DNA of 32,151 nucleotides from assembly GCA_022968985.1 (NCBI GenBank), contig JALJPK010000041.1:1-32151 (forward strand). The letters run 5' to 3'. Below are positions 6,456 to 23,277 of the stretch, one piece after another. The notes beneath the pieces were generated by a model that saw nothing but the letters and a program-made list of their open reading frames with translations, had not been told where the DNA came from and searched no databases. Made by a program: the position numbers and the translations under genes. Position 1 is the stretch's first letter. The number at the start of each line of letters is the position of its first letter. This stretch comes from Pseudomonadales bacterium. Lineage in GTDB: Bacteria > Pseudomonadota > Gammaproteobacteria > Pseudomonadales > Natronospirillaceae.

Positions 6456-7520
6456 ATGAACATTACCGTAGAAGTGCAATCGCTGTCTTACCGATACAAT
6501 CAAACAAATGTGTTAAATGACGTCAGCTTTAAAATCCATACAGGTGAGTTAATTTGTTTATTAGGCTCAAATGGTGCAGGTAAAACGACACTTATCAACT
6601 TAATATTAAATCGCTTAACATTATTAGAAGGTCAGATTCATGTATTTGAAAACGACATCAATAACAACGTCAAATCTAGCAACAGTAATGTGGCACAACG
6701 TATTGGTGTTATGTTACAAGACAGCACCGCACCCGAACGCGCTACAGTAGTTGAGTTAATTGAGTTGTTTGCCAGTTATTATCCAAATCCGCTTGATACT
6801 GAACAATTAATTATTGAATTGGGTATTAAATATATTGAACAGCAGCGTTTTGGTAAACTATCTGGTGGCCAAAAACAAATTGTGTTATTCGCTTTAGCGT
6901 TATGTGGTGATCCTGATTTATTATTTTTAGATGAACCCTCTGTTGGAATGGACGTAAATGTTCGAAGAACGTTATGGAAAATAATTGAAGAGTTAAAAAG
7001 CAAAGGCAAAACAATTATTTTAACCACCCATTATTTAGGCGAAGCCGATCATTTAGCCGACAGAATTTTAGTATTACAAAATGGAAAAATAATCGCCGAT
7101 GACACCCCCGATGTTATTAAAGCTAGATTTGAAAACAAACATATAAAAGCCATCAGCAAATTAAGTATTGAGCAAATACAAAATTTACCCTGTGTCAGCA
7201 AAGCGCAAAAAGTAGGTAAGTTTTATGAAGTGATTACAACTAATGCACAAAATACGTTAAAACAATGGTTTGTCGATGATGACAACCTACTTGATTTAAC
7301 AGTGACATCCACAAATTTAGAACAGGCATTTATTCAAATGATGCAATCGGATGAATCTGACAAGTCTTCTGACATTTCCTCAAAGGATTTAACAGTGACA
7401 TCCACAAATTTAGAACAGGCATTTATTCAAATGATGCAATCGGATGAATCTGACACTTCCTCTGACATTCCCTCAAAAACAACATCAAAAACCCCTTCCC
7501 TTAACTCAACTATTAATTAA
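6456..7520 (+). CDS. ABC-2 exporter ATP-binding protein
   Basis: A 354-residue cytoplasmic ATPase of the drug/antimicrobial-export ABC-2 class. Walker A is GSNGAGKTT (37-45), Q-loop Q88, signature LSGGQ (135-139), Walker B LLFLDE (155-160), and H-loop H192. The usual C-terminal motif of this class, here LEQAFIQMM, appears twice because residues 280-310 are duplicated as 311-341 (a 93-bp tandem DNA repeat), followed by a Ser/Thr/Lys-rich tail. This makes the protein longer than typical members of about 300 residues. It pairs with the permease starting 13 bases downstream, and with a histidine kinase and response regulator further on, an arrangement like LnrJK-LnrLMN or YvfRSTU of Bacillus, where the exporter removes membrane-active compounds. 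The substrate is unknown. Confidence 0.9.
   Translation: MNITVEVQSLSYRYNQTNVLNDVSFKIHTGELICLLGSNGAGKTTLINLILNRLTLLEGQIHVFENDINNNVKSSNSNVAQRIGVMLQDSTAPERATVVELIELFASYYPNPLDTEQLIIELGIKYIEQQRFGKLSGGQKQIVLFALALCGDPDLLFLDEPSVGMDVNVRRTLWKIIEELKSKGKTIILTTHYLGEADHLADRILVLQNGKIIADDTPDVIKARFENKHIKAISKLSIEQIQNLPCVSKAQKVGKFYEVITTNAQNTLKQWFVDDDNLLDLTVTSTNLEQAFIQMMQSDESDKSSDISSKDLTVTSTNLEQAFIQMMQSDESDTSSDIPSKTTSKTPSLNSTIN
7293..7478 (+). repeat. 93-bp in-frame tandem duplication
   Basis: Unit 1 spans 7293-7385 and unit 2 spans 7386-7478; both begin GATTTAACAGTGACATCC. The first 70 or so bases are identical by eye, and differences are confined to the last part. Each unit encodes 31 residues starting DLTVTSTNLEQAF, so the reading frame is kept. 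The near-identity suggests a recent event. Confidence 0.9.
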
Positions 7521-13015: not shown

Positions 13016-13627
13016 TTACTCCATCAAATAATCAATTTTATCTTTAAGCACCGACAATGAATCTTCAGTAAATAATAAAAGTAAATCACAGTTAATATTT
13101 CGATTTTCTATCGTGTAGTTAATCTCGATTGCCAAAGTTTGTTTCCAGCGTTTTTTTGCAGATTTAATCAATTCGGGTACTTTTATATGTTGGCCCAATA
13201 TAACAGGTTGACCTTGTGAAAACTTAACATCTAACTGTTCGGACACACCTTGTAAACAAGCACCAATTAAAATATTGGCAATATCCATTAACAATTCTAA
13301 TTCAATATTTTTATCTATTACCCCTTTAAAATGGGTTAACTCTGCAATATCACTAAAACTAGTATCATTAAAAATCAACAACGCTTCGCCAGCAATGTTT
13401 GAGCCTATAAATCCCTGACAAACCGCCGATACACTTTCGCTATCTTCCAATGAACTAAGCGCCATATGTAATTCTGATATTTCTAATAAATTCACATTAG
13501 GAATAGGTAAGATGACATATACATCTAATAATCGAGCTAGTAAATCCGCGGCCCGCCCCATTGCTACATTAGATACTTCTTGTAGACAATCACGTGAGTC
13601 TTCAGAAAATTTAATTGCTTGTGTCAT
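13016..13627 (-). CDS. CheC-family CheY-P phosphatase
   Basis: A 203-residue protein of the CheC/FliY phosphatase family, which dephosphorylates CheY-type receivers. Both phosphatase motifs of the form D/S-x3-E-x2-N-x22-P are visible. The first is exact (D13, E17, N20, P43). The second is E111, D115, N118, P141, with conservative changes of the two acidic positions and the Asn and Pro kept. I start it at the ATG at 13627, because AGGAG then lies 6 bases upstream; a TTG two codons earlier would abut the ribosome site. It lies 9 bases after the CheY-like gene and 3 bases before the cyclase. Its natural target is almost certainly that CheY-like protein. Confidence 0.8.
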   Translation of the reverse strand: MTQAIKFSEDSRDCLQEVSNVAMGRAADLLARLLDVYVILPIPNVNLLEISELHMALSSLEDSESVSAVCQGFIGSNIAGEALLIFNDTSFSDIAELTHFKGVIDKNIELELLMDIANILIGACLQGVSEQLDVKFSQGQPVILGQHIKVPELIKSAKKRWKQTLAIEINYTIENRNINCDLLLLFTEDSLSVLKDKIDYLME

Positions 13628-13636
13628 GATCAACTC

Positions 13637-14005
13637 CTAGCCGATTACACCGTATTGGGTTAATACTTGAGTGACTTTTTCACGATCAACAGGTTTTTTT
13701 ATAAAATCTAAGGCACCTAGTTTTTTAACTCGTTCATAAGCTTCGGGTTGAATATCTCCTGAAACCACAATCACCATTGAAGGTAAGTCCTGAGCTTTAA
13801 TCACTTCTAAAGTGCCATAACCATCTAATACAGGCATGGTTAAATCTAAGAACATGATTTCGCCTTTACCACTTTTAATGGCGTCAAGCGCCTCTTGTCC
13901 ATGACTAGCAAATGTCACATCTACGTCCCAATTTTCGGGCAAAGCGCGGTTCATTTGTTTTCGTGCAAAACTGGAGTCATCACAAATAATGATTGGTAAA
14001 GCCAT
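13637..14005 (-). CDS. CheY-like single-domain response regulator
   Basis: A 122-residue stand-alone receiver. The acidic pair is D9/D10, the phospho-acceptor is D54 in MFLDLTMPVLDGYG, the switch Ser is in VVVSGD, and the conserved lysine is in DFIKKPV. There is no output domain, so it signals by protein contact. It heads the operon with a CheC phosphatase and a PAS-GGDEF cyclase, so it likely carries phosphate from an unlinked histidine kinase and either controls or is controlled by the cyclase. An AGGTGA ribosome site precedes the ATG. It is of the same general type as CheY, but there are no flagellar or chemoreceptor genes around it. Confidence 0.9.
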   Translation of the reverse strand: MALPIIICDDSSFARKQMNRALPENWDVDVTFASHGQEALDAIKSGKGEIMFLDLTMPVLDGYGTLEVIKAQDLPSMVIVVSGDIQPEAYERVKKLGALDFIKKPVDREKVTQVLTQYGVIG

Positions 14006-14107
14006 AAATCACCTAGTGTTCAAATTTAACTATAACTAGAGTAAAGGCTATATACAGGGGGTTCGCAAATTAAAAATATTACATTATGTAAAGCGCTGAA
14101 GGCGTTT

Positions 14108-14123
14108 CTCACATCCTTGTGAG
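14108..14123 (-). terminator. Short hairpin after the lipoprotein gene
   Basis: CTCACA-TCCT-TGTGAG, a 6-bp perfect stem 11 bases beyond the stop of the minus-strand gene at 14135. No good U-tract follows, so it is at best a weak terminator or a stabilising 3' hairpin. Confidence 0.3.
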
Positions 14124-14134
14124 TGAAGTTTTAA

Positions 14135-16784: not shown

Positions 16785-16912
16785 TCACTGTTTTTACTGA
16801 ATATCATTCATGAAACTGGCTTGAAATAATTCACATTTTATTTTAATGAACTCCTTTTTGTTCAGCATTTTTATCAATGAGATTCTATTATTTAATCAAT
16901 TTTAGGTGTCTT

Positions 16913-18181
16913 ATGACCACTCATTTTAAACACACACGTTTTATATTTAGCGCTATCATTTTCAACTGCGCTTTAGCATTAAATGCAAATGCTCAAAGCT
17001 TAGAATCGTTGATTGATCAAGCAATTTTTAACGATCCATGGCTTAAGTCTTCAAATTGGACAGAACAAGCTTTTTTACAACAAGCTGAGGCTAAAACACA
17101 ATGGATGGACCCCACAGTCCAAGTATCATTGGCCAATTTAGCGATAAACAGCTTTGATTTTAAACAAGAAGCTATGACTCAATTTAAAGTGTCAGCCAAA
17201 CAAATGCTGCCCAATACTCAAAAATTGAATTTGGAAAAACAAGTTCAAATCGATTTAGCTCAAATACAACCTATTTTACGTATTCAACGTGAAGCCAAAT
17301 TGGCCTTAAGCATTAAACAACTTTGGTTAAATGCCTACCAAACTCATTTGAGCATTGAGTTAATTGAAAAGAACTATCAATGGTTTGAGCAAATAATTGA
17401 TTTAAACCAAACTCGTTATCAAACGGGTTTTAATATGTCAGATAGTCAGAATATTTTAGAAGCGCAGGTGGCGCTATTAAAAATAGATGACCGTTTATTG
17501 TCGTTAAAATCTAAAAAACTCGAACATCTGACAAAATTATCTCAATATATTTTTGAACCTATTAGCTTAACTGATGTTAAATGGCCCAATTTTGTACACA
17601 TTAACATCGAACAAAACTTCATCATTGAAGCCATCAATTCTCACCCCTTATTACAAGTAATCATCAAACGCGCTGAATTATTATCAACCAAATCGTTATT
17701 GGTTAATACAACCGACGATTTAAACTGGAATGTAGGTGTCGCTTATTCATACCGTGCCGATTCTGATAATGGCATAAAACGTAGTGATTTATTAAGTATT
17801 AGTGTGGGTGTAAACATCCCTTATTTCTCAAAAAACAAAACTCAATTTTTAGTGCAATCTAATCAATCAAAACAACACAGTTTAGATTTCGAAAGACAAA
17901 CCCTCGTTAATCAATTAAAAGCACAATTTAATACGTTAATAGCCAAAAATGAGATCAATGAAAAACGCATTAAATTAAACGACACTCAACTTATTACTAA
18001 ATCATTAGAGTATTCCGATGTTGCACTTAATGCTTATACAACCAACAGCAACGATTTTTCAAAAGTATTAAAAGCAAAAATCGAACAACTCAATACAGAA
18101 TTAACATCTTTAGAATTGATAAAAAACAAACAATTCATCATTGCTGACTATCAATTTTTAACAACAGGTATTTCATTATGA
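16913..18181 (+). CDS. cusC: TolC-family outer-membrane channel (CusC/CzcC-like)
   Basis: A 422-residue outer-membrane efflux protein that forms the exit duct of the tripartite pump with CusB and CusA. I use the ATG at 16913, preceded by AGGTG; a longer frame from 16877 adds 12 residues before the natural signal peptide (MTTHFKHTRFIFSAIIFNCALALNANA). The mature part consists of two repeats of long amphipathic helices (rich in Gln, Leu, Lys, Glu; e.g. AKLALSIKQLWLNAYQTHLS) and beta-strand segments such as WNVGVAYSYRAD and LLSISVGVNIPYF, as in the OEP family. There is no lipobox cysteine near the cleavage site, so it resembles CzcC more than E. coli CusC. Its TGA overlaps the next ATG (ATGA). 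Confidence 0.88.
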   Translation: MTTHFKHTRFIFSAIIFNCALALNANAQSLESLIDQAIFNDPWLKSSNWTEQAFLQQAEAKTQWMDPTVQVSLANLAINSFDFKQEAMTQFKVSAKQMLPNTQKLNLEKQVQIDLAQIQPILRIQREAKLALSIKQLWLNAYQTHLSIELIEKNYQWFEQIIDLNQTRYQTGFNMSDSQNILEAQVALLKIDDRLLSLKSKKLEHLTKLSQYIFEPISLTDVKWPNFVHINIEQNFIIEAINSHPLLQVIIKRAELLSTKSLLVNTTDDLNWNVGVAYSYRADSDNGIKRSDLLSISVGVNIPYFSKNKTQFLVQSNQSKQHSLDFERQTLVNQLKAQFNTLIAKNEINEKRIKLNDTQLITKSLEYSDVALNAYTTNSNDFSKVLKAKIEQLNTELTSLELIKNKQFIIADYQFLTTGISL

Positions 18182-19947
18182 AAATCATAAAAAACATCTT
18201 TATCAGTTTATTTTTAATCGGTATTGGATTCATTTTAAGTTTTGTACTCATAAATAATACATCCTTATTGAATTCACATTCAGAAATAAAAGTGAGTTCT
18301 GAACAAGACGAAAAACAACCTCTTTATTGGGTCGCACCTATGGATCCTAATTTCAGAAAAGACGAACCGGGTCTGTCACCAATGGGGATGGAGCTTGTAC
18401 CATTTTTTGCCGATGAAAACTCTGCCGAGATTGGTAGTGTTAGAATCCACCCAGATGTGGCGTACAATTTAGGCCTGAGAACACAAAAAGTAATCAAACA
18501 GCCTTTTGTAAATACAATTAAAACTGTAGGGATTGTGGCAGTCAATCAAAACAACATTACCCATGTGCATTCGCGTGTAACCGGTTGGATTGAAAAACTG
18601 TATGTTAAAACACTTGGCGAAGAAGTTAAAAAAGGCCAAGCGTTATATGAAATTTATTCACCTGAATTAGTTAACGCACAAGAAGAATTATTGATTGCAC
18701 TTAAACGAAACAATAAGTTTTTAGTGAGCGCATCAAGCGAGCGTTTATTAGCGTTACAAGTGTCTAAAACACATATAAATGAACTCAAGAAAACTAAAAA
18801 GGTAAAACAAACTGTTGTTATTTACGCTAAAGCATCAGGGTATGTCACTAAATTAAACATTAGTGAAGGTTTTTATATAAAACCAGACATTACGCTTATG
18901 GCGTTAACGGATTTATCAAATGTCTGGATTAAAACTCAAGTATTTGAAAGTAGCGCAAATAAAATTCATTTAAATATGAATGTACACATCGATGTAAACA
19001 ACCATATTTTTAACGGTATAGTGGATTATATATATCCAATTTTAGATAAGAAAAACAGGAGTCTAACTGTTCGTACCCAACTGGATAACCCTGAATTAAT
19101 TCTAAAACCTAATATGCAAGTTAACGTTGTTTTATCTAATAACGATACAAAATCCACATTACAAATCCCAATTGAAGCGTTGATTCGCCTGGGTTATGAA
19201 AACAAAGTAGTAATTAAAATTGCAGAAAATCAGTTTAAATCAGTTAATGTTAAAGTAGGCCGTATCAATGAGAATTGGGCCGAAGTTATTTCAGGTTTAG
19301 AAGTGAATGACGAAGTGGTCACCTCTGCTCAATTTATGATTGATTCAGAATCGTCTAAAACCTCTGATTTTAAGCGTTATAGTGATTCTGCAGAAAGCAA
19401 TATGCAGATGAAAGACAAACAAGAAGAAACAGAAAACGGCGTTTGGGTAACCGCTATTATCAACTCAGTTAATATTCAAGACAATCAAGTAAATGTAGAT
19501 CACCCACCCATTAAACAATGGAACTGGCCAGCGATGACAATGAATTTTGTAATTAACGAGTCCGTTGATACAAACCGTTTAATAGTAGGTTCAAGCTTAG
19601 AGATACACATAATTAAAGACAATAAAAAATATGTGATCGATCAGGTTAAAAGTAAAAGTAAAACAAAAACCAAAAACCAAGATCAAGTTACTGTAAAAGC
19701 AACCCTCAACTCAATTAATGCCGCTAAACAATTAGGCAATTTTGATCACCCTCCGATTAAACTATGGAACTGGCCAGCCATGACTATGAATTTTAATTTT
19801 GATGACTCCATCGATTTAGACACACTTAAAATTAATAGTGAATTTCTGATCACCATTGAAAAACAAAATAAAAAATACGTCATTGTAAATACAATGCCTT
19901 CTAACCACAGTGAACCAGAAATGGATCACAGTAACATGAAGCATTAG
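18178..19947 (+). CDS. cusB: CusB adaptor fused to two CusF domains
   Basis: A 589-residue periplasmic adaptor linking CusA to CusC. An N-terminal membrane anchor (10-26) is followed by a heavy-metal-binding-domain relic at 50-77 (YWVAPMDP...GLSPMGMELVP) whose usual cysteines are replaced, leaving Met residues. Residues 90-395 form the HlyD/CusB body (barrel-sandwich with VHSRVTGWIEKL, helical hairpin, beta-barrel). Two CusF-type copper/silver chaperone domains follow: the first with ligands H442, W450, M453, M455, the second with H524, W532, M535, M537. This is exactly the H-x7-W-x2-M-x-M spacing of CusF. The tail (NHSEPEMDHSNMKH) adds more His/Met. CusF is normally a separate protein; single fusions are known, a double one is less common. 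Confidence 0.92.
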   Translation: MKIIKNIFISLFLIGIGFILSFVLINNTSLLNSHSEIKVSSEQDEKQPLYWVAPMDPNFRKDEPGLSPMGMELVPFFADENSAEIGSVRIHPDVAYNLGLRTQKVIKQPFVNTIKTVGIVAVNQNNITHVHSRVTGWIEKLYVKTLGEEVKKGQALYEIYSPELVNAQEELLIALKRNNKFLVSASSERLLALQVSKTHINELKKTKKVKQTVVIYAKASGYVTKLNISEGFYIKPDITLMALTDLSNVWIKTQVFESSANKIHLNMNVHIDVNNHIFNGIVDYIYPILDKKNRSLTVRTQLDNPELILKPNMQVNVVLSNNDTKSTLQIPIEALIRLGYENKVVIKIAENQFKSVNVKVGRINENWAEVISGLEVNDEVVTSAQFMIDSESSKTSDFKRYSDSAESNMQMKDKQEETENGVWVTAIINSVNIQDNQVNVDHPPIKQWNWPAMTMNFVINESVDTNRLIVGSSLEIHIIKDNKKYVIDQVKSKSKTKTKNQDQVTVKATLNSINAAKQLGNFDHPPIKLWNWPAMTMNFNFDDSIDLDTLKINSEFLITIEKQNKKYVIVNTMPSNHSEPEMDHSNMKH

Positions 19948-19955
19948 GGGTTTTT

Positions 19956-20051
19956 ATGATTAGTAAAATTATATTTTGTTACTCGGTGAAAAATCGTTTT
20001 TTGGTTTTATTATCGACATTAATTATTTCATTAGTTGAGGTGTTTTCATGA
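19956..20051 (+). CDS. Mini-ORF 1: 31-aa copy of the CusA N-terminus
   Basis: ATG ORF of 31 codons whose sequence (MISKIIF, then SVKNRFLVLLSTLIISLV) is almost the same as the first residues of CusA. It carries its own ribosome site (AGGGG at 19946-19950). The TGA overlaps the start of the second copy (ATGA at 20048-20051). The DNA match to the true cusA start continues past the coding identity: the bases that supply the Shine-Dalgarno of copy 2 (GAGGTG) are a slightly changed version of cusA codons. It may be a decayed duplicate or a translated leader peptide that would insert as a single membrane helix. Confidence 0.6.
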   Translation: MISKIIFCYSVKNRFLVLLSTLIISLVEVFS

Positions 20052-20128
20052 TTAGTAAAATTATTCATTACTCGGTAAACAATCGTTTTTTGGTCTTATT
20101 GACGACATTAATTGAGGAATCTTTATGA
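20048..20128 (+). CDS. Mini-ORF 2: 26-aa copy of the CusA N-terminus
   Basis: A second in-tandem copy, 26 codons, starting MISKIIHYSV and sharing NRFLVLL with CusA. It is more diverged than mini-ORF 1 and shorter. It ends in a TGA that overlaps the ATG of full-length cusA (ATGA at 20125-20128), and the cusA ribosome site GAGGAA lies inside its last codons. If translated, ribosomes ending here would restart on cusA. Whether it is selected or merely a remnant cannot be told from one sequence. Confidence 0.55.
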   Translation: MISKIIHYSVNNRFLVLLTTLIEESL

Positions 20129-23100
20129 TTAGTAAAATTATTTATTGGTCGGTGAAAAATCGTTTTTTGGTTTTATTATCGACATTAATTATTTCATTAG
20201 TGGGTGTATTTTCATTATTAAAAACACCCCTTGATGCGATTCCAGATTTATCAGACGTACAAGTAATCATCAAAACAAGTTATCCAGGACAGGCACCACA
20301 AGTAGTAGAAGATCAAGTGACCTATCCTCTAACCACCGCGATGCTTTCAGTGCCTGGTGCTAAAACGGTTCGCGGTTACAGTTTTTTTGGTGACTCCTAT
20401 GTGTATATTATTTTTGATGAAGGCACCGATTTATATTGGGCGCGCTCAAGAGTATTAGAATATTTAAGCCAAGTTGCACCTAACTTACCGTCTCAAGCAA
20501 AATCACAACTTGGGCCCGATGCGACAGGTGTCGGTTGGATTTACGCTTATGCGCTTATTGATAAAACAGGACAACATGACTTAGCACAGTTAAGAAGCCT
20601 ACAAGATTGGTTTTTAAAATTTGAGCTACAAACTGTTAAAGGGGTTTCTGAAGTAGCCACGATAGGAGGTATGGTTAAACAATATCAAATTGTGGTCGAC
20701 CCAAATAAATTAGCCGCATTAAATATCCCATTACAACATATTAAAATGTCAGTACAACGCTCCAACCAAGAAGTAGGAACTTCTGTAGTTGAAATGGCTG
20801 AAGCGGAATATATGGTGCGTGTCACAGGTTATATTCAATCAATAACAGACTTAGAAAACATTTCGTTAGGCTTAAATGAACAAGGCACACCACTGTTATT
20901 AAAAGACGTGGCCCATATTGAGTTAGGCCCACAAATGCGCAGGGGTATTGGTGAATTAAACGGCGAAGGCGAAGCCGTAGCGGGCATAGTTGTAATGCGT
21001 TTTGGTGAAAATGCACAACAAACTATTAACGCAGTTAAAGCAAAACTTGAGCAACTAAAAACAGGACTTCCAGCGGGGGTTGAAATCATTCCTGTGTATG
21101 ATCGTTCGGGTTTAATTGAACGTGCAGTTGAAAACTTATGGCATAAATTGTTAGAAGAGTTTTTAGTAGTGATGTTTGTTTGTTTTATATTTTTATTCCA
21201 TTTACGCAGTTCACTTGTTGCGATTATAAGTTTGCCAGTAGGTATATTGACCGCGTTTATCATTATGAAAGCCCAAGGTTTAAATGCCAACATAATGTCA
21301 TTAGGTGGTATCGCTATTGCGATTGGGGCGATGATTGATGGTGCCATTGTGATGATTGAAAACATGCATAAACACATGGAAAAAACAGTCATTACTAAAG
21401 AAAATCGCTGGGAAGTAGTAGCCAAAAGCGCATCCGAAGTGGGTCCTGCTTTATTTTTTAGTTTAATGATTATTACCGTGAGTTTTGTGCCTGTATTCAC
21501 TTTAGAGGCACAGGAAGGAAAAATGTTTGCGCCTTTAGCGTTTACTAAAACCTACGCTATGGCCGCATCGGCAATATTAGCCATTACATTGGTACCTGTA
21601 TTAATGGGATATTTTATTCGAGGCAAAGTATTACCCGAGCATAAAAACCCTTTAAACCGAGTATTAACCTTTATCTATTTACCTGTCTTAAATCGAGTTT
21701 TGGCATGGCCTAAAACAACTATTTTAGGTGCTTTACTTTTATTGGCAGTGGGGTTTTATCCAATGAATAAAATTGGATCAGAATTTATTCCACCACTGGA
21801 TGAAGGCGATTTAATGTATATGCCTACTACGTACCCAGGCATTTCAATCGCAGAAGCCAGAGACATTTTACAGTTAACCAATAAATTAATTAAAACAGTG
21901 CCCGAAGTTTTAACCACCTACGGCAAAATGGGTCGTGCAGAAACCGCAACCGATCCTGCACCTTTAACAATGATCGAAACCTTTGTGCAATTAAAACCAA
22001 AAGATCAATGGCGAGAAGGCTCAACCACAAAAAGTATTAAACAAGAGTTAGACAGCCTGATTAAAATCCCAGGTTTAACCAACGCTTGGGTCATGCCAAT
22101 CAAAACGCGTATCGACATGTTAGCAACCGGTATTAAAACCCCAGTTGGTATTATAGTAGGTGGTCCTGACTTAGCAGTGATTGAGAAAATAGGTCAAGAT
22201 TTAGAGCGTATTGTACAAGACATTAAAGGCACCGCTTCGGTTTATTCAGAGCGTGTTGTGGGTGGACGTTATTTAAAAGTGGATATTGATCGTTTACGTG
22301 CAGCCAATTACGGCTTAAATATAATGGATATTCAAGAAATTGTAAGTAGTGCAATTGGAGGAATGAACATTACTAAAACTGTTGAAGGGTTAGAGCGTTA
22401 CCCTGTGAACTTACGTTATCCACAAACCCAACGTAATTCACCTGAAGCTTTAAAAAACCTGCCCTTAATTACCGCAAAAGGTGATCGAATTGCATTGTCT
22501 GATGTGGCAAACATTTATATTGAAAAAGGCCCCGCTGGTATTAAGAGTGAAAACGCACGTTTAAATGGCTGGACATTTATTGATATTAAAGACATCGACA
22601 TTGGCAGTTACGTAGAGAACGCTCAAAAAGTGGTGAATGAACAACTGGTATTACCTGCTGGATATTCGATCACATGGTCTGGACAATATGAATATATGTT
22701 ACGTGCTAAACAAAAATTAAAAGTAGTGATTCCGTTTACGTTATTAATCATTATTGTTTTATTGTTTCTAAATTTTAAAAACTTCACCGAAGTATTTATC
22801 ATTATGGGCACGTTACCTTTTGCGATGATTGGTAGTATTTGGTTAATGTATTTACAAGGTTTTAACTTTTCAATTGCAGTAGGTGTCGGCTTTATTGCAC
22901 TAGCAGGTGTATCCGTAGAGATAGGTGTGATTATGTTGGTGTATTTAAACCAATCCTATAACCATATGTTAAATGAATGTGTTTCAAACAATATTCTGCC
23001 AACAATAAAAGACTTAAGACAAGCCGTTATACATGGCGCTGGCATGCGTATTCGCCCTGTAATGATGACGGCTTGCGCCATCATTCTTGGTTTATTACCC

Positions 23101-23277
23101 ATTTTATTAGGCACAGGAACCGGCTCAGAAATAATGAGCCGTATCGCAGCACCTATGGTAGGCGGCATGATCAGTACTGTTTTATTAACTTTACTTGTAT
23201 TACCTGTTGTCTATTTTATGTGGAAAAAAAATCATATTAATACCCCTTTAAAACCAATAAAAAGAGAAGACTCATGA
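20125..23277 (+). CDS. cusA: CusA-type Cu(I)/Ag(I) RND efflux pump
   Basis: A 1050-residue inner-membrane RND pump of the heavy-metal (HME-RND) family, driving Cu(I)/Ag(I) through CusB and CusC with proton motive force. Twelve helices with two large periplasmic loops are evident. The proton-relay aspartate is in AIAIGAMIDGAIVMIEN. The three methionines that form the metal site in E. coli CusA are recognisable by context: YMPTTYPG, PLTMIETF and RIDMLATGIK, along with the nearby Glu and Lys. Other hallmarks are SYPGQAPQVVEDQVTYPL near the N-terminus and GLLPILLGTGTGSE near the C-terminus. The start is fixed by GAGGAA and the overlap with mini-ORF 2; the stop overlaps the CopC-like gene (ATGA). 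Copper/silver rather than cobalt/zinc/cadmium is the best substrate call. Confidence 0.96.
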   Translation: MISKIIYWSVKNRFLVLLSTLIISLVGVFSLLKTPLDAIPDLSDVQVIIKTSYPGQAPQVVEDQVTYPLTTAMLSVPGAKTVRGYSFFGDSYVYIIFDEGTDLYWARSRVLEYLSQVAPNLPSQAKSQLGPDATGVGWIYAYALIDKTGQHDLAQLRSLQDWFLKFELQTVKGVSEVATIGGMVKQYQIVVDPNKLAALNIPLQHIKMSVQRSNQEVGTSVVEMAEAEYMVRVTGYIQSITDLENISLGLNEQGTPLLLKDVAHIELGPQMRRGIGELNGEGEAVAGIVVMRFGENAQQTINAVKAKLEQLKTGLPAGVEIIPVYDRSGLIERAVENLWHKLLEEFLVVMFVCFIFLFHLRSSLVAIISLPVGILTAFIIMKAQGLNANIMSLGGIAIAIGAMIDGAIVMIENMHKHMEKTVITKENRWEVVAKSASEVGPALFFSLMIITVSFVPVFTLEAQEGKMFAPLAFTKTYAMAASAILAITLVPVLMGYFIRGKVLPEHKNPLNRVLTFIYLPVLNRVLAWPKTTILGALLLLAVGFYPMNKIGSEFIPPLDEGDLMYMPTTYPGISIAEARDILQLTNKLIKTVPEVLTTYGKMGRAETATDPAPLTMIETFVQLKPKDQWREGSTTKSIKQELDSLIKIPGLTNAWVMPIKTRIDMLATGIKTPVGIIVGGPDLAVIEKIGQDLERIVQDIKGTASVYSERVVGGRYLKVDIDRLRAANYGLNIMDIQEIVSSAIGGMNITKTVEGLERYPVNLRYPQTQRNSPEALKNLPLITAKGDRIALSDVANIYIEKGPAGIKSENARLNGWTFIDIKDIDIGSYVENAQKVVNEQLVLPAGYSITWSGQYEYMLRAKQKLKVVIPFTLLIIIVLLFLNFKNFTEVFIIMGTLPFAMIGSIWLMYLQGFNFSIAVGVGFIALAGVSVEIGVIMLVYLNQSYNHMLNECVSNNILPTIKDLRQAVIHGAGMRIRPVMMTACAIILGLLPILLGTGTGSEIMSRIAAPMVGGMISTVLLTLLVLPVVYFMWKKNHINTPLKPIKREDS

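Follow-up and report, generated by a model that had tools for sequence, protein, structure and literature searches.

Replication slippage or microhomology can give rise to short tandem duplications, a general class of event. The repeat array that we have analysed at the start of a cusA gene resembles such duplications in that copies of a unit lie head to tail, there is a modest similarity between the sequences at the presumed ends of the unit, and the periods of arrays within ORFs of the same genome are divisible by 3. It differs from the usual slippage duplication in that the unit spans a translation start, each copy carrying a Shine-Dalgarno sequence, an ATG and an open frame, and in that the copies have already diverged. 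Some described systems are related in other respects. Archaeal Borg elements contain tandem repeats throughout their genomes, with units described as 18-21 nt long and perfectly repeated (PMC9879509); compared with that description the present genome is bacterial, its periods are at least 40 nt, and its arrays have mostly two or three diverged copies, often at gene ends. The genomes of marine Beggiatoaceae have intergenic TAACTGA direct repeats, described as a single seven-base motif (PMC4679880). The likeness to that account lies in the many direct repeats within one bacterial genome, whereas at cusA coding sequence has been duplicated at a single locus. Lastly, coupling by termination and reinitiation at ATGA overlaps has been described (PMC6728339, PMC10666635). 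As in such coupled genes, a 4-nt stop/start overlap joins co-directed frames at cusA, but here the upstream frames are fragments of 26-31 codons of the downstream gene itself, and the coupling is putative. Among the literature matches listed, the titles and the opening lines of the abstracts describe no bacterial case of a tandemly copied gene start like that of cusA.

The window (the whole stretch of 32,151 nt that was analysed) contains a copper/silver-type efflux operon at 16877-23277, after which come CopC- and CopD-like genes. The operon includes the gene of an outer membrane factor (16877-18181) and, on the forward strand, cusB (18178-19947), encoding a periplasmic adaptor with two C-terminal CusF domains (Pfam HlyD_D23 2.1e-69; CusF_Ec 1.5e-31, in two stretches). 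It is completed by cusA (20125-23277, forward strand), encoding an RND heavy-metal efflux pump of 1050 amino acids (Pfam ACR_tran 7.5e-240). Between the last two genes Tandem Repeats Finder detects an array of 3.2 copies with a score of 309 (19946-20220). Copy 1, of 92 nt (19946-20037, forward strand), comprises a Shine-Dalgarno sequence, an ATG and 27 codons, one more than the corresponding part of copy 3. Copy 2, of 77 nt (20038-20114, forward strand), has the same elements with 22 codons, and is 15 nt shorter than copy 1, lacking 3 nt near the start and 12 nt in the tail. Copy 3 (20115-20220, forward strand), the presumed working start of cusA, runs straight into the gene. The copies are thus spaced by 92 nt and then 77 nt, head to tail, and while the ATG of copy 1 lies 8 nt from the cusB stop, that of copy 3 lies 177 nt from it, an extra 169 nt.

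The original prediction was of three cusA starts at 19956, 20048 and 20125, each with its own ribosome site, and this is borne out by the coordinates, the repeat score and the calculated duplex energies of the Shine-Dalgarno sequences, which are -5.9, -6.9 and -6.2 kcal/mol respectively. In strength they equal or surpass the sites of 83%, 93% and 86% of 451 genes in a 949-kb sample of the genome, percentages that are rough, the start of each gene having been taken as the first ATG of its ORF. Since their ribosome sites are strong, the upstream copies are probably translated. The two short frames were also found as predicted. Mini-ORF 1 (19956-20051, forward strand; 31 codons, MISKIIFCYSVKNRFLVLLSTLIISLVEVFS) ends in a TGA that overlaps the ATG at 20048, and mini-ORF 2 (20048-20128, forward strand; 26 codons, MISKIIHYSVNNRFLVLLTTLIEESL) in a TGA that overlaps the ATG at 20125, so that both stops lie within the following ATGA. 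An RNA switch was considered as well and is not favoured: the predicted fold of 19900-20230, which is also the one structure examined for a leader-peptide attenuator, is not unusual (z = -1.30), and 14 of 100 shuffled sequences are folded equally well or better.

We compared the junction with that of cusA genes elsewhere, the best of which are 77% identical. In a set of 95 homologues (88 distinct junctions), inspection by eye revealed no copy of the start in the 60 nt upstream of cusA. The distance from the upstream ORF was measurable in the 90 that have a long ORF ending nearby, and ranges from -8 to +17 nt with a median of -1, compared with 177 nt here; none of these 90 has a gap of 100-260 nt. 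Plasmids are a further source of related sequences, with 3054 records that match the cusA DNA. In the 20 plasmid matches listed of these, the alignment begins at query base 616 or later (window 20115, where copy 3 starts) with 66-73% identity, and the upstream copies are absent. No exact match to the core pattern of the repeat was found in the viral_contigs collection, and a phage origin of the repeat was rejected on this count. At an E value of 1e-100 or better, 20 of the 21 family genomes other than the source lack a cusA match, and the one remaining (G007) has a relative that is just 28% identical; because of this the operon may have been acquired by horizontal transfer.

Comparison of the three copies suggests which of them is in use. 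Trp-8 is present in 92 of the 95 homologues and, among the three copies, is kept only by copy 3; copies 1 and 2 both have TAC at this position. Copy 3 is therefore likely to be the working CusA start, and copies 1 and 2 to be of common ancestry. On the other hand copies 1 and 3 share an identical run of 53 nt, from which copy 2 departs at five sites, a distribution that suggests conversion or unequal exchange between copies.

A plausible origin for the first duplication is provided by a similarity between the cusB/cusA junction, CATTAGGGGTTTTTATGATTAGTAAAA, and codons 24-33 of cusA, CATTAGTGGGTGTATTTTCATTATTAAAA (20195-20223, forward strand), the presumed slippage partner. The two align with a score of 32, which was reached by 11 of 1000 shuffles; the similarity is modest and the sequence AT-rich. 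Along cusA the same score was reached in two of 201 overlapping windows, both of which hold the stretch of codons 24-33. Slipped mispairing between these sequences would have given a unit of length 3n+2, and the upstream copy would then have been duplicated again, with changes of length in multiples of 3. On such a scheme the mini-ORF peptides and their ATGA ends would be an outcome of the phase of duplication, and no selected function would be needed.

The phase of the duplication has a direct bearing on the ends of the frames. It had been argued that two open frames that both stop exactly on the next ATG are unlikely to have a random origin. That argument fails, as the ATGA lies within the unit and the position of the stop is set by its length modulo 3. 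ATGATTAG forms the first bases of the repeated unit. A frame entering the next unit will therefore meet TGA at once if the length is 3n+2, meet TAG five bases in if it is 3n+1, and be fused in frame if it is 3n. We modelled this with copy 3 as the unit, at lengths of 70-100 nt, without mutation and with a spacer entered by hand. All 11 lengths of the 3n+1 class stopped at the TAG five bases into the next start, and all 10 of the 3n class read into the next start in frame. Five of the 10 lengths of the 3n+2 class, 77 and 92 included, stopped at the next ATGA; the other five stopped 11 bases sooner at a TAG created by the hand-entered spacer. The mini-ORFs end on ATGA because the unit begins ATGATTAG and has a length of 3n+2, and since the lengths of the two real units differ by 15 a single phase served both. 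An NTGA start is found in 91 of the 95 other cusA genes, and so is a property of the cusA gene itself. Thus a triplicated start and Shine-Dalgarno sequence with frames ending on the next ATG, striking as it is, arises almost automatically from tandem duplication by 3n+2 over a gene that begins with ATGA. The feature is evidence of neither a designed relay nor micro-peptides.

Are the copies nevertheless under constraint? They differ from each other by 7-10 nt, yet both mini-ORFs are open. If as many sites are substituted neutrally, the probability that a copy remains open is 0.50-0.54. Synonymous/nonsynonymous codon changes number 3/3 between copies 1 and 3, 3/4 between copies 2 and 3 and 4/4 between copies 1 and 2; the excess of synonymous ones falls short of significance (P = 0.14 and 0.16, such counts being reached in 14-16% of open runs). 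The two differences in length (3 and 12 nt) are both divisible by 3, which is true of only 8 of the 32 gaps in arrays that lie outside ORFs. Taking a phase of 1/3, openness of 0.5 × 0.5 and indels of about 1/9, a rough product is near 0.01, before allowing for some 25 such loci genome-wide (extrapolated from nine in 36%) and for the locus having been picked for its openness. This is mild evidence that frame has been kept at the mini-ORFs, and is weaker once the number of loci and the choice of this one are allowed for.

One reading of the open frames is that they encode functional membrane micro-peptides, copies of the CusA N-terminal helix that modulate the CusA trimer. Much of the helix is indeed kept in both, and the ribosome sites on the copies are strong. 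However, copy 2 stops after 22 homologous codons and continues with EESL, and similar fragments precede unrelated genes in this genome, those of cytochrome bd subunit II, urease beta and a molybdopterin-binding protein. The signs of a conserved small protein are not seen either; in none of the 90 homologues is there room for such an ORF before cusA, and the synonymous excess has the P values of 0.14-0.16 given above. The suggestion of membrane micro-peptides gained nothing in its favour beyond the open frames, and we regard it as very improbable.

Local tandem duplication is common in the source genome (G000). In 101 stretches totalling 1,739,047 bases, about 36% of the genome, we counted 68 tandem arrays with a period of at least 40 and a score of at least 100, eight of them from the single stretch L118. 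Two control sets gave two arrays in 369,915 bases (20 stretches of family genomes) and seven in 887,921 bases (110 loci around related RND genes). The density in the source genome is about 5-fold that of the controls (68 in 1.74 Mb against nine in 1.26 Mb, p = 1e-8). The controls have another GC content (0.52 and 0.47, against 0.34) and were drawn in a different way, and some of their loci are nearly identical to each other. The excess persists in the 949-kb sample without L118, with 32 arrays against nine (p = 4e-6). ORFs, rather than predicted genes, were used throughout. All 23 of the arrays within ORFs have a period divisible by 3, and the remaining 45 are distributed 14/15/16 over the three phases; the duplications therefore look phase-random, with those that break genes being lost. 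The genome makes or keeps many local tandem duplications. A lack of mismatch repair, or a lack of two single-strand exonucleases, was rejected as the cause: mutS, recJ and xseA score above the cut-off in all 22 family genomes searched, the source genome included.

The same data bear on the quality of the assembly. It might be supposed that variants of the cusA start from several strains had been joined in tandem in a fragmented draft, and the genome is indeed in 273 contigs, its completeness is 90.85%, and a search for a 16S rRNA gene found none. Against this, the sequence at the junctions between the copies is unique, and similar diverged arrays are present on many contigs. Since joining errors would not yield in-ORF periods that are all divisible by 3, we consider such an artefact highly unlikely.

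We scanned 1325 gene starts of the source genome for a copy no more than 260 nt upstream. Of 12 hits, nine stand after reading; those dropped were at window 7444 (inside an ABC ATPase ORF), L205 (an intergenic repeat) and L220 (repetitive sequence, with TTG as the start codon). Besides cusA, the duplicated starts belong to genes for a beta-lactamase-family protein (L131), a periplasmic-binding-domain protein (L147), a molybdopterin-binding protein (L127), RelA/SpoT (L157), an AHH nuclease-like protein (L215), a flavin reductase (L228), urease beta (L232) and cytochrome bd subunit II (L221). Copies ending on ATGA occur at cusA, L147 and L127, and three of nine loci is the share expected by chance. 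L131 has two upstream copies, each of which ends more than 70 nt short of the next start. In L157 and L228 the copied frame ends prematurely, after 4 and 11 codons respectively, and in L215 the copied start codon has decayed. The controls gave no hit in 316 family genes and two in 479 other genes, both dropped (L023, which looks like a repeat protein read in the wrong frame, and L012, an in-frame MKT run at the gene start). The excess has p = 0.017 with these rows dropped (9/1325 against 0/795) and 0.096 with them retained (12/1325 against 2/795); against the family alone p = 0.22. With fair confidence, then, duplicated gene starts are in excess over the controls, a conclusion that depends on the dropped rows.

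Three of these loci have features of their own. At L221 the ORF of cytochrome bd subunit II (13124-14134, reverse strand) is accompanied by a hybrid ORF, in which the N-terminus of the gene is joined to a copy of the C-terminus of the upstream gene, and which ends 8 nt inside the true start. At L232 (13777-13916) a 42-codon ORF that copies the urease beta start, with a Shine-Dalgarno-like site of its own, precedes the whole gene. The dropped control L012 (6241-6642, Marinomonas foliarum) is a gene at whose beginning the codons for MKT recur in frame (as repeats of ATGAAAACT), giving a ladder of in-frame starts.

Taken with three diverged copies and 169 extra nt that are absent from the homologues, similar duplications at other gene ends make up the observed part of the explanation that we favour. 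We think it likely that the cusB/cusA junction was multiplied by one short tandem duplication and then by a second, in a genome where such duplications are often made or retained, and that copy 3 is the working start. Among the possibilities raised originally was a remnant of repeated recombination. This is supported in the form of repeated duplication, given the approximately 5-fold array density and the eight other duplicated 5' ends. A paralogous cusA was rejected as recombination donor, the genome's other RND matches being only 22-23% identical, and no donor paralogue was seen.

A further reading accepts the duplication and gives the open frames a role in its survival. On this view the duplication moved cusA a further 169 nt away from cusB, past the reach of termination and reinitiation; open copies that stop on the next start would pass ribosomes on, and so survive in frame. 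Both mini-ORFs end in ATGA, the stop/start overlap of a coupled pair, and the spacing of the upstream ORF and cusA in the 90 homologues is within the range for coupling. We defined a close junction as one where the upstream gene was originally within 20 nt. An open copy ends less than 20 nt from the true start at all four of these (cusA, L127, L221 and L232, with ends at +1, +1, +8 and -13 nt relative to the true start), compared with one of the other five (L147). The genes upstream of L221 and L232 we take to be cydA and ureA, named from their peptide ends. The difference has a Fisher p of 0.040 one-sided and 0.048 two-sided, but the test was devised after the loci were known, with n = 9. Moreover, at a close junction a stop near the start can be supplied by the unit itself, the Shine-Dalgarno sequence of copy 3 is strong in its own right, and synonymous changes are not significantly in excess. 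That coupling kept these copies in frame at cusA seems to us rather unlikely. We place similarly low odds on its general form, in which duplications at operon junctions in this genome would be filtered and then maintained by coupling, a duplicated start surviving if its shortened frame remains open and terminates on the following start. If it were true, the chain of mini-ORFs would relay ribosomes from gene to gene over a stretch of DNA that otherwise would uncouple them. A genome rich in duplications of gene ends offers natural cases for asking whether coupled translation limits the survival of duplications.

Other repeats were seen in the course of the analysis. A dispersed family consists of intergenic tandem repeats, roughly 90-100 nt in size, which match one another on different contigs (L155 3968-4158, L184 17049-17212, L186 16756-17123 and L197 1-276). 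Some intergenic arrays belong to such dispersed families; the cusA array does not, and has no relatives elsewhere in the 949 kb tested. Within the sample of the source genome arrays at 3' gene ends (17 alone) are commoner than those at 5' ends (4 alone). One gene-edge array (L118 11-773) falls within genes for repeat proteins and may have been put in the wrong class. Partly decayed tandem copies of the end of the gene lie behind the 3' ends of genes at L154 18464-18827, L120 5900-6174, L141 9394-9584 and L142 13808-14095. In the window itself, part of the C-terminal tail of an ABC transporter ATPase (ORF 6456-7520) is duplicated in tandem and in frame (7293-7477; 93 nt, copies 95% alike), shortly ahead of the permease gene. 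The two CusF domains of CusB (19500-19570 and 19746-19815) likewise form a tandem, at a spacing of 246 nt. An Arcobacteraceae MAG (L036 2531-2970) also has a tandem in the corresponding stretch before cusA, with a period of 234 nt and copies 90% alike, and this one is apparently independent.
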